A stretch of 64,000 nt of DNA, from assembly GCF_016862935.1 (NCBI RefSeq), contig NZ_BONX01000004.1, positions 62,001 through 126,000 on the forward strand. Reading direction: 5' to 3'. Of the stretch, positions 59,641 to 62,711 are shown piece after piece. The notes beneath the pieces were generated by a model, which did no database searches, was not told where the DNA came from, and saw nothing but the letters and a program-made list of their open reading frames with translations. The DNA is from Plantactinospora mayteni. GTDB taxonomy: Bacteria > Actinomycetota > Actinomycetes > Mycobacteriales > Micromonosporaceae. Both the position numbers and the translations under genes were made by a program. Numbering within the stretch: the stretch's first letter is position 1; every line of letters starts with the position of its first letter.

Positions 59641-61053
59641 TCAGCCCCGGCCGGGGCGCTTGCCGACCAGGGTGGTGAGCGAGCGGGGCGGAAGCTCGAC
59701 CGTGGTGTGCCGGCCCCACTCCGAGACGATGTCCGGAGACTTCTCCAGGTTGTGCGTGGAGTCGGTGAGGTAGGCCGTCGGCCGCTTCAGGTCGACTCCG
59801 GTACTGACGGTCGCGTTCGTGGTGTTGAGGATCTCCACGACCTCGGTGCCGTCGGCGTTCCGGTAGGCCGACACCTTCACCCCCTCCGGTGCGCCGTCGA
59901 TGCCGAGCCGGACCGCGCCGGGCCGGACGAACCGGCTGTACGCGGCGAAGGCGTAGAGCCGCGACGACACCCGGTACGCGTCGTTGGCGTCGTCGACCTG
60001 CATCAGCGCCGCCGTGCCGCCCCGGGACGAGCCGAGCCAGAAGATGAAGGCACTGCTGTTGGCGAGGGCCAGGGTGTCGTGGATGCGCTCGGCGATCGCG
60101 ATGCCGTCGGTACCCTTGCCGCTGTCCCACGCCTCGTTCCAGCCGTCCGCGACGCTCGACGGGGCCCACTCCGACATCCAGGTGGTCGCCTTGGTCGGCA
60201 GCGGGCGGTCCGAGGGGCTCGCGTAGCCGTGACCGGTGAAGAGGTCGACGTAGCGGCGGGCCACCGGATCCGCCTCGATCGCCTCGACGTAGGCGTCCGA
60301 CTGCTGCCAGCCGAACGAGTCGCAGCAGGCCACGTCCACGCCGGCCCGCCTGGCGATCGGGCCGAGCACCTTCACGAACTCGGCGGCCTGGGCCGGGGTG
60401 AACCGCATCGAGGCGTAGGACGCCGTCCAGTCCGGCTCGTTGGTGAAGCCCAGCTCGTCGAGCCTGATCCCCTCCTGCCGGTAGAACTTGGCGTACTGGA
60501 CGAGATAGCGCGCGTACGCCTCGCGCCAGTCACCGCTGGCGCAGGTGACACCCTGTAGACCGCAGAGGGCGCCGCCGTTGGTGTCGGTGCCGTTGTCCTT
60601 CATGTAGGCCGGCGCGCTCCAGGCGTCGGCGTAGAACCGGTCGACGCCGCGCTTGCGCGCCTCCTTGGCGTACCACACCTGGGCGCCGTCCCAGCCGTCC
60701 CAGCGGTAGTTCGGGGTGGCGTCCGGCCCGCCCGGGTCGGTCGGCTGGATGGAGAGCATCGAGTCGTACTGGTCGGTCGCCGAGGAGCCGATGCCGAGCC
60801 GCAGGATGCTCGGCGCCGCGCCGGTCTCCCGGTCGAGGAGCAGGTCGAGGGCCTCCTCGCGCTTCTGCGCGGAGAGGTTGTGCACCAGCGACGAGCGCTG
60901 GAAGGCGATGGAGTAGCCGAAGCCGTCGATGACCTGGTGCCGCTCGGTCCGGTCGACGCCGATCTCGGATCGTGGGCCGGCCGCCTGCGCCGGTGCACTC
61001 GTCAGGACGGTTGCCGCCACGACGGCGGTGACCAGGGTGGTGGATCGAAGCAC
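59641..61053 (-). CDS. Secreted GH30-type glycoside hydrolase, 470 aa
   Basis: Signal peptide 1-25 (AQA cut). The barrel opens with QVIDGFGYSIAFQRSS. Acid/base E206 lies in LGFTNEPDW and nucleophile E295 in TTWMSEWAPSS, the GH30 pattern (glucanase, xylanase or galactanase). A beta-sandwich follows at the C-terminus. GTG at 61053 with AAGGAGAG upstream. Divergent from a LacI-type regulator that probably controls it. Confidence 0.92.
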   Translation of the reverse strand: MLRSTTLVTAVVAATVLTSAPAQAAGPRSEIGVDRTERHQVIDGFGYSIAFQRSSLVHNLSAQKREEALDLLLDRETGAAPSILRLGIGSSATDQYDSMLSIQPTDPGGPDATPNYRWDGWDGAQVWYAKEARKRGVDRFYADAWSAPAYMKDNGTDTNGGALCGLQGVTCASGDWREAYARYLVQYAKFYRQEGIRLDELGFTNEPDWTASYASMRFTPAQAAEFVKVLGPIARRAGVDVACCDSFGWQQSDAYVEAIEADPVARRYVDLFTGHGYASPSDRPLPTKATTWMSEWAPSSVADGWNEAWDSGKGTDGIAIAERIHDTLALANSSAFIFWLGSSRGGTAALMQVDDANDAYRVSSRLYAFAAYSRFVRPGAVRLGIDGAPEGVKVSAYRNADGTEVVEILNTTNATVSTGVDLKRPTAYLTDSTHNLEKSPDIVSEWGRHTTVELPPRSLTTLVGKRPGRG

Positions 61054-61367
61054 GAGACTCTCCTTGGCACGGTCGCGCCGCTCGCCGGCCGCCCGGACTG
61101 CCCGTCCACTCGATCGCGTCCGGCCTGAAACATTTAGCAGTATGAGTCGAAAAGGTTCGGGTGACAAGCCCATCGGCGCATCGGCCGGCTTCGGCATCCA
61201 ATCGTCACGACGAATGCGGCCCTCTTGCCGTGTCCGCCAGTTCTGCGACGATCCGGCCACCACGACTCCGGCGACGTGGCAGCCCATTGGCGTATGCCGA
61301 CGCGTGTGGAGCAATTCGTGGAGCTATTTGCGTCAGTCAAGGAGCCAGTTTCCGCTAGCCTGGCTCC
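61054..61367. other. 314-bp divergent control region
   Basis: Carries the promoters of the GH30 and LacI-type genes. A dyad TCGTC-AC-GACGA at 61202-61213 is a candidate operator. No gene seen. Confidence 0.65.
61202..61213. promoter_or_regulatory. Dyad between GH30 and LacI-type genes
   Basis: TCGTCACGACGA, perfect 5-bp arms, near the middle of the divergent region. Confidence 0.45.
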
Positions 61368-62711
61368 ATGTCGGACCCCTCCTCGCGGCGGCGCGCCCGT
61401 GGCGAAGTCGAGCGGCTGCCCAGCGGGTCGCTGCGGGTGCGGGTCTACGCCGGGCTCGACCCGGTCAGCAAGAAGCGGCGCTACCTGGTGGAGACGGTTC
61501 CCGCCGGGCCGACCGCCGAGCGGGACGCCGAGGCGGTCCGGGTCCGACTGCTCGCCGAGGTCGACGAACGTCGCGGCCAGCAGGGGCGGAGCAACCTCGA
61601 CGGGTTCGCCGCCCAGCGGGTGGCCGCCGAGGTCGGCGGCACCGGGCGTACCGTCGCGGCTGCACCGGGCGGGCCGGCGCCCGGACGGCAGCGCGGGCGC
61701 CGGCAGGGCGAGTTGACGGTCGCCGCCATCGCGGCGCTCGCCGGGGTCTCGGCGCCCACCGTGTCGAAGGTGCTCAACGGCCGTCGGGACGTCGCGCCGG
61801 CCACCCGGGCGCGGGTGGAGACGGTACTGCGCGAGCACCCCTACCGCCGCCCGGAGAGCGCCGTCCGGGGCGCCAGCATCGAGGTGCTCTTCTACGGCAT
61901 GCAGAGCCACCTGGCGGTGCAGATCATGCAGGGTGTCGAGGAGGTGGCCGGCGAACACAAGCTGGCCGTCGTCTTCGGCGACGTGTTCCACCAGGTGTCG
62001 ACCGGCCGCCCCTGGGCACAGGACCTGCTGGCCCGACGCCCGACCGGCGTGATCGCCGTACACCTGGGATTCACCCCCGAACACCACGCCACGCTGGCCG
62101 CCAGCGGGATCCCGCTGGTGGCCCTCGACCCGACCGGCGAGCCGGAGCACCCGGTCCCGTCGGTCGGGGCGACCAACTGGAGCGGAGGCATCGCCGCCAC
62201 CCGGCACCTGCTCGACCTCGGCCACCGGCGCATCGCCGTGATCACCGGGCCGACCGAACGCCTCTCCGCCCGGGCCCGCCTGGAAGGTGCCCGGGCCGCG
62301 ACGGACGCGGCCGGGGTACCGCTGGACAGCCGGCTGATCCGCACCGGCCAGTGGTTCGCCTTCGAGGACGGGCTCAACCACGGTCGCGAACTGCTGCGGC
62401 TGCCCGAGCGACCCACCGCCATCCTCTGCGGAAACGACCTACAGGCCCTCGGCGTCTACGAGGCGGCCCGCCAGGCTCGGATCCGCATCCCGGACGACCT
62501 CAGCGTCGTCGGCTTCGACGACATCTCCTACACCCGATGGTGCGGCCCACCCATGACCACCGTCCGGCAGCCACTCGCCGAGATGGGCGCCGCCGCTGCC
62601 CGACTCGTCCTGGCGCTGGCCTCGGGCGGCGCACCGCCCGCCCAGACCCGTCTCGAACTGGCGACCACCCTCATCGTCCGGGACAGCACCGCCGCGCCGC
62701 CACGACCCTGA
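61368..62711 (+). CDS. LacI-type regulator with integrase-arm-like N-terminal domain, 447 aa
   Basis: Residues 8-72 (RRARGEVERLPSGSLRVRVY ... RRYLVETVPAGPTAERDAEA ... LLAEVDERR) closely resemble the N-terminal arm-DNA-binding domain of actinomycete tyrosine recombinases. After a Gly/Ala linker, residues about 115-165 are a normal LacI HTH (LTVAAIAALAGVSAPTVSKVLNGR) and then the sugar-binding domain to the end. Codon use is the same across both parts, so this is one gene. The ATG at 61368 has no ribosome site; a TAGCCT at 61356-61361 suggests a leaderless transcript. It should repress the divergent GH30 gene. Confidence 0.88.
   Translation: MSDPSSRRRARGEVERLPSGSLRVRVYAGLDPVSKKRRYLVETVPAGPTAERDAEAVRVRLLAEVDERRGQQGRSNLDGFAAQRVAAEVGGTGRTVAAAPGGPAPGRQRGRRQGELTVAAIAALAGVSAPTVSKVLNGRRDVAPATRARVETVLREHPYRRPESAVRGASIEVLFYGMQSHLAVQIMQGVEEVAGEHKLAVVFGDVFHQVSTGRPWAQDLLARRPTGVIAVHLGFTPEHHATLAASGIPLVALDPTGEPEHPVPSVGATNWSGGIAATRHLLDLGHRRIAVITGPTERLSARARLEGARAATDAAGVPLDSRLIRTGQWFAFEDGLNHGRELLRLPERPTAILCGNDLQALGVYEAARQARIRIPDDLSVVGFDDISYTRWCGPPMTTVRQPLAEMGAAAARLVLALASGGAPPAQTRLELATTLIVRDSTAAPPRP

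Follow-up and report, generated by a model that had tools for sequence, protein, structure and literature searches.

A LacI-family regulator with a tyrosine recombinase arm-binding domain and an array of arm-type sites at its own promoter

The 64,000-nt stretch of Plantactinospora mayteni DNA analyzed here (hereafter, the window) encodes a protein in which a domain homologous to the N-terminus of tyrosine recombinases precedes a LacI-family regulator, a probable repressor of sugar genes. The arm-LacI fusion is a conserved, old family of soil actinobacteria with a single origin, evidenced by the clades formed by its arms and by its LacI bodies, and its promoters carry an array of arm-type sites, with a like array preceding the integrases that share the arm, an arrangement that is new here. 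The reading that best accommodates these results, to which we assign a probability of roughly 0.8 in the absence of binding data, is that the captured arm autoregulates its own gene and that the LacI head controls glycosidases.

The first-pass annotation had described a continuous frame with a complete LacI repressor, and this held: the 447-aa frame contains, according to Pfam, a LacI helix-turn-helix (HTH; PF00356) at residues 121-160 and a Peripla_BP_3 domain at residues 279-441. These two elements, a PF00356 HTH and a periplasmic-binding-like body, satisfy LacI/GalR membership, although the HTH is not N-terminal. The core-binding and catalytic domains that would define an integrase are absent by Pfam; the fusion is a LacI member with an added domain, and not a member of the integrases. 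In the homologs inspected, as in the window, the start codon precedes the arm by a few to ~12 residues, and because homologs also place it closely before the arm the ATG at 61368 is a plausible, if inferred, start. A wrong start codon for the fusion was considered and rejected. The features of the locus are compiled in Table 1.

Table 1. Coordinates, strand and supporting evidence for features of the fusion locus, in window positions.
Feature	Position	Strand	Evidence
Divergent GH30 glycosidase, likely target	59641..61053	-	Pfam; GTG start at 61053 with AAGGAG upstream, read from sequence
GH30 promoter-like site TTGTCA-17-CATACT, 9 of 12	61139..61167	-	Consensus promoter scan
Candidate LacI operator GTCGAAAAGGTTCGGG inside GH30 promoter spacer	61146..61161	.	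Alignment; below cut-off, weak
Arm-type site 1, TGGAGCAAT	61307..61315	+	Motif scan
Arm-type site 2, TGGAGCTAT, 12 bp after site 1	61319..61327	+	Motif scan
Degenerate arm-type site 3, AGGAGCCA, 21 bp after site 2	61340..61347	+	Motif scan
TAGCCT, -10-like box just before ATG	61356..61361	+	Read from sequence; promoter role and leaderless start inferred
Inverted arm-type site 4, TGGCTCCA, reaching from the -10-like box to the A of the start codon	61361..61368	-	Motif scan
Arm-LacI fusion regulator, 447 aa	61368..62711	+	One open frame; distinct homologs share domain order
Integrase-type arm-binding domain, residues 11-72	61398..61583	+	Homology, tree, AlphaFold model
Arg25, position covarying with site core in integrases	61440-61442	+	Residue-site covariation
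Variable linker from arm to HTH, residues ~73-113	61584..61706	+	Low pLDDT, high pN/pS
LacI HTH and sugar-binding body, without usual hinge sequence	61710..62696	+	Pfam, model, alignment

Modeled alone with AlphaFold, the arm adopts a beta-beta-beta-alpha topology (mean pLDDT 83.9), and in the full-length model residues 11-70 reach block means of pLDDT 90-96, linker residues 83-113 fall below 50 and no helix forms at the hinge of the LacI body. The three-strand, one-helix fold that characterizes arm-binding domains is thus met in the AlphaFold model only; a Foldseek search of the arm model against the PDB yielded no match at E <= 0.001 (503 matches, best 50 inspected). Across 13 fusion pairs, pN/pS was 0.14-0.39 for the arm, 0.05-0.21 for the HTH, 0.10-0.35 for the body and 0.41-1.57 for the linker, the latter resting on 4-47 codons that are hard to align, and demonstrates that the arm is under purifying selection. 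Alignment of the HTH-body junction revealed that the fusion lacks the usual LacI hinge sequence, a trait that 61710-62696 shares with the armless loci L162, L167, L172, L173, L175-L182 and L184 in a LacI subfamily without it. Its absence from close armless proteins as well as from fused ones means that the hinge was not simply exchanged for the arm.

The proposal that residues 8-72 constitute the arm-DNA-binding domain of an integrase was borne out for residues ~11-72, but not through the profile search of residues 1-110 that had been suggested for it. Residues 1-110 alone had no match in Pfam, NCBIfam families or PDB sequences, a single chance-level match in PHROGs (E 0.32), one weak tblastn match in phage records (one phage, seen twice; E 0.1) and none in plasmid records, and a profile of the arm matched only unrelated enzymes, weakly, in the PDB. 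No Pfam arm family reached its cut-off among 59 members scanned, the best being Arm-DNA-bind_4 in eight of them (best E 0.02), and the arm of the window matched none of these families even weakly. A Pfam test is the wrong one here, because no Pfam model reaches cut-off, and homology was demonstrated instead by tblastn and alignment. Searches with residues 1-110 in 300 Micromonosporaceae genomes returned strong matches over residues ~5-80 (best E outside the own genome, 6.7e-34) at 30 loci: 14 LacI fusions, the window included, 14 tyrosine recombinases and two cut or short frames. In an alignment of 18 arm domains with 72% mean column identity, the arm of the window is 65-76% identical to ten other LacI-borne arms and 59-67% identical to the N-terminal domain of seven recombinases. 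In the two recombinases scanned whole, the shared domain leads directly into a SAM-like core-binding domain, followed by the catalytic domain. These results establish that the N-terminal domain of the fusion is homologous to recombinase N-termini, meeting the sequence-homology requirement for an arm-binding domain, and chance similarity of the arm to recombinases was rejected. One of the two recombinases scanned whole (L007) also carries a GntR C-terminal domain by Pfam, and a GntR-like region past the catalytic domain was seen by eye in integrase loci L010, L014, L019, L021-L023, L025 and L031.

It had been stated from the outset that the fusion would be refuted if all homologs started at the LacI HTH. 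They do not: a search for the same domain order found the fusion conserved in related genomes, and armless relatives also exist, up to 72% identical to the LacI body of the window. A pattern-based scan of 84,980 species genomes identified 110 relatives, the best 80 of which comprise 31 LacI fusions, one arm (L077) that the contig end cuts before any LacI part and that groups with the fusions by its arm, 34 frames with the recombinase motif and 14 others. The fusions come from Plantactinospora, Phytohabitans, Micromonospora, Paractinoplanes, Amorphoplanes, Virgisporangium, Jidongwangia, Glycomyces, Saccharothrix and Nonomuraea; at E <= 0.001, 25 of 394 genomes sampled across the class have a match, short or weak in some cases, and no second arm of the same kind was found in the genome of the window (search at E <= 1). 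The single genome of Virgisporangium ochraceum encodes both a K-type arm integrase and an arm-LacI fusion (L071, L100), and is a natural setting in which to look for cross-talk between the two.

On a tree of 94 distinct arms, inferred from 75 columns only, the 37 fused arms, 36 of which are followed by a visible LacI part, are set apart by a branch with support 99/94. Among the other 57 arms, 41 belong to frames with the recombinase motif and 16 do not, but 13 of these match a recombinase profile immediately after the arm, in its own frame or a different one, bringing the total with a recombinase behind the arm to 54 of 57; no such match was found in L131, L142 and L143. A quick tree of LacI bodies likewise separated 38 fused bodies, by a branch with SH-aLRT 100, from 13 close and five distant armless rows, with none of the 18 inside the fused clade; the five distant rows adjoin the Micromonospora fusions and belong to another LacI group. 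Some Saccharothrix fusions retain a stretch resembling RNPRTRA, which in integrases leads into the core-binding domain and which possibly indicates where the arm-LacI joint lay.

Reading the DNA upstream of the fusions, we noticed a repeated GTGGAGCYAT, with consensus CRTGGAGCYAT. At least two TGGAGC cores, on either strand and within 135 nt upstream of the arm codons, are present in 36 of 37 fusions versus 0.84% of control windows (7400 windows from the same loci), and at least three in 32 of 37 versus 0.03%. The 36 promoters carry two to five cores, the sole exception being L030, with no array in the 135 nt upstream, and core pairs are spaced by 9-12 or 21-22 bp. All eight fusions fetched later combine Arg at the position of Arg25 (R) with at least two TGGAGC cores. 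Most fusion promoters also have an inverted copy at the start codon. The sequence GCTCCATG, which includes an ATG, lies within 60 nt before the arm codons in 29 of 37 fusions, and in the window the ATG within its start-codon copy is the start codon itself. The consensus promoter scan did not report the TAGCCT box at 61356..61361. Armless LacI genes (13 close and five distant rows) had no TGGAGC in the 200 nt upstream of a guessed point in any of 18 rows, and within 500 nt one copy in four rows and two or more in none. The pair pattern is not enriched genome-wide: its looser form has 12 matches in the genome of the window, one at the fusion promoter, versus 82 for a reversed control, and in 26 genomes, mostly picked for fusions, the stricter form has 0-4 matches each, below control in nearly all, some of them sitting at fusion promoters. 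The enrichment is local. Further upstream, a block GAAACATTTAGCAGTATGA at 61126-61145 recurs almost unchanged in Plantactinospora endophytica, and is similar to the GGAAACAGTTAGCGG-like stretches that precede Phytohabitans fusions (L066, L081).

A like array precedes the integrases. The 48 integrase-type loci that could be called have, ahead of the gene, two TGGnGC (or TGTAGC) cores spaced by 12 bp, some with an inverted copy at the start codon as well, and the site logos of fusion promoters and of integrases with an R arm are nearly alike. A tRNA gene ends shortly upstream in 31 of the 32 integrase-type loci scanned (of 48 named), which places the array between the probable att site and int, a position in which arm-type sites are, by inference, expected. 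Scanning 14 fusion loci gave a tRNA in a single case, at a distance of ~7 kb, and the window has none in its entire length. A living mobile element at the window locus was rejected.

The core of these sites covaries with the residue corresponding to Arg25. Of the 94 arms, 79 had a readable pair and residue: 31 LacI arms with R and TGGAGC, 18 integrase-type arms with R and TGGAGC and 30 integrase-type arms with Lys (K) and another core (TGGTGC, TGGGGC, TGGCGC or TGTAGC). The rule thus holds in all 48 integrase-type loci with a readable pair (18/18 R, 30/30 K), 46 of which show a recombinase behind the arm (L131 and L142 do not). The 15 uncalled arms are six LacI arms, all R, and nine others, namely L104, L110 and L132, with near-arrays containing A, the divergent L139, L037 and L038, with TGGCAY, and L134, L143 and L040, with nothing readable upstream. 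On a tree of 39 integrase bodies with both traits, residue and site change eight times each, and all five independent supported pairs agree on the link (sign test P = 0.0625, the lowest attainable with five). The R/K column holds all the information on site class, and the next best arm column half.

This rule was counted on the same data in which it was first seen. A check on 39 further stretches (17 repeats and 22 new) upheld one half of it: new integrase-type arms with K had a non-A core in five of five cases (L234 by eye), whereas those with R had TGGAGC in only two of six. The four exceptions (L242, L244, L248 and L250) have arms beginning RGT, RGS or RGA, and the rule is therefore limited to RGE-type arms, as found in the fusions, and fails in more divergent ones; residues beyond the R/K position also matter for arm specificity. 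Of the remaining arms, L253 combines S with a non-A core, the divergence of L254 precludes a reading, and L226, with R and four TGGAGC, was assigned to neither the fusion nor the integrase kind. Upstream of their arm codons, the four exceptions display, by eye, TGAC(G/A)C repeats spaced by 12 bp, and such a class could point to a wider specificity code for these arms.

The fusion loci also harbor a second, palindromic motif. A first palindrome search settled on the arm-type repeats themselves, so the array was masked before the search was rerun. This uncovered the palindrome ATcGAnnnnnnTCgAT, with a score of 144.7 versus 33.4 for one set of shuffled sequences, which in 27 of 37 loci scores above the cut-off in the vicinity of the gene, versus 0.035 instances per kb elsewhere in the same loci, although the training set of the matrix consisted largely of the regions then scored. 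The palindrome falls below the cut-off in the other ten loci, the window among them, where the candidate in Table 1 aligns with TTCGAACTGGTTCGAC in P. endophytica (L075). In 11 of 12 co-directional loci the palindrome is no more than 350 nt downstream of the fusion gene, either preceding the next gene or at its start, and only two of the 12 also have one upstream, in one case overlapping the start-codon site; an overlap of palindrome and start-codon site is also the arrangement in L077. Armless sisters have related palindromes, several of them near their own start. The LacI hinge helix is known to contact a central CG in the operator; the central pair of this palindrome is degenerate and does not conform to that expectation.

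By tblastn (E <= 1e-8), 20 of 37 fusion loci contain a GH30-like gene and no integrase-type locus searched does, some loci in this count being only 2-3 kb long. Eight neighbors scanned with Pfam comprised two GH30, one each of GH62, alpha-galactosidase, GH115 and glucuronyl esterase, and two others: that of L123, GH30-like by tblastn but without a Pfam match at 1e-5, and that of L068, a peptidase M23/tachylectin protein and not a glycosidase. Taken together, the neighbors point to the use of plant cell-wall polysaccharides. The first-pass annotation had named the divergent GH30 gene as likely target, and this remains plausible by inference; the arm-type sites of the window are at the regulator's own promoter (61307-61368), and the GH30 palindrome is only a weak candidate. 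The suggestions in the first-pass annotation that the protein binds two kinds of DNA site and that a captured integrase remnant serves as second DNA contact are supported, respectively, by two conserved motif types around the genes and by homology with a single origin, in both cases without data on binding, which is inferred.

These observations can be assembled into a model in which a LacI-family glycosidase regulator would have captured, once, the 5' module of a tyrosine recombinase gene of the tRNA-integrating kind, comprising the arm-binding domain and, apparently, a promoter with arm-type sites; joint capture of promoter and domain is inferred because their layout is common to fusions and integrases. 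The arm would bind the tandem CRTGGAGCYAT array that spans the promoter and start codon of the fusion gene, resulting in autorepression or autoregulation; both this binding and repression as its effect are inferred. The LacI head and sugar-binding body would bind the different, palindromic operator at neighboring glycosidase promoters (GH30 in the window), from which sugar would release the LacI head; sugar as inducer and GH30 as target are likewise inferences. The linker, being flexible, would allow a single dimer to occupy both sites, making looping a possibility that is untested. The model is supported by demonstrated homology, a single origin, the conserved array and its counterpart in integrases, covariation limited to one arm type, purifying selection and a separate palindrome in many loci.

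One alternative is that the arm and its array are mere leftovers from the capture of an integrase 5' end, the array marking ancestry only, and that the LacI part does all the regulation. The arrangement at fusions does resemble that of integrase promoters and was probably inherited. Against this alternative, which we consider unlikely, at least two cores are kept in 36 of 37 fusions despite spacing that has drifted (9-12, 21 and 22 bp) and despite the divergence of much of the intergenic DNA around them, the arm has a lower pN/pS than the adjoining linker, and none of the 18 armless rows falls within the fused clade. It is also unlikely that the fusion acts in trans, its arm occupying the arm sites of incoming R-type elements and silencing or blocking their integrase, or their integrase acting on the fusion gene. 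The near-identical site logos of fusion promoters and R-type integrases imply that cross-binding is expected if the arm binds, but the neighbors are often glycosidases, the genome of the window holds no other arm of the same kind and there are no functional data. Finally, it is very unlikely that the LacI head and not the arm binds the TGGAGC repeats: direct and inverted copies can be read as imperfect palindromes, where the first palindrome search landed, but a like array precedes integrases without any LacI head, armless sisters with closely similar HTHs lack it, and a different palindrome emerges once it is masked.

Returning to the model of an autoregulatory arm and a glycosidase-controlling LacI head, a bolder version posits that the repressor gained a second, independent operator code in one step, through the arm and its promoter-borne sites, such that one protein recognizes two unrelated kinds of DNA site, direct repeats in controlling itself and palindromes at its targets; we regard the case for and against this claim as evenly balanced. 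Bridging of the two site types by looping, and cross-talk with mobile elements of the same code, are further possibilities under it. The fusion makes it possible to trace how part of a recombinase from a mobile element came to be reused by a host transcription factor, apparently along with its DNA sites, and offers a regulator whose two DNA-binding domains can be separated and tested. Arg25 versus Lys, in turn, constitutes a predicted specificity position for arm domains that Pfam does not recognize at cut-off. No earlier report of such a fusion was found in the open-access literature searched, with most subscription papers and bioRxiv preprints outside its scope.

The fusion can be compared with three known systems. 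LacI-family transcription factors recognize palindromic motifs of even length with a central CG consensus (PMC4052901). The fusion resembles them in its PF00356 HTH and sugar-binding body, in its frequently adjoining carbohydrate genes and in the even length of the palindrome seen in many of its loci, in the window only below cut-off, but differs in the second DNA-binding domain in front, in the direct repeats at its own promoter, in a palindrome without the central CG consensus and in the missing hinge sequence, a departure shared with its close armless sisters. The AB domains of the IntTn916 subgroup are N-terminal, consist of three strands and one helix, recognize accessory DNA near the recombination site and in some cases escape Pfam prediction (PMC8138268); the arm of the fusion is modeled with the same topology, but sits on a transcription factor devoid of core-binding and catalytic domains, in a window without a tRNA. 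Lastly, integrases of pSAM2/pACPL-type AICEs integrate at the 3' end of tRNA genes and have repeated arm-type sites next to att (PMC3364876). Although the AICE arm-type repeats, 21 nt in length and of the form GTCACCCAGTTAGT(T/C)AC(C/T)CAG, are unlike CRTGGAGCYAT (PMC3364876), the place of integration and the presence of such repeats beside att are points of likeness with the system described here.
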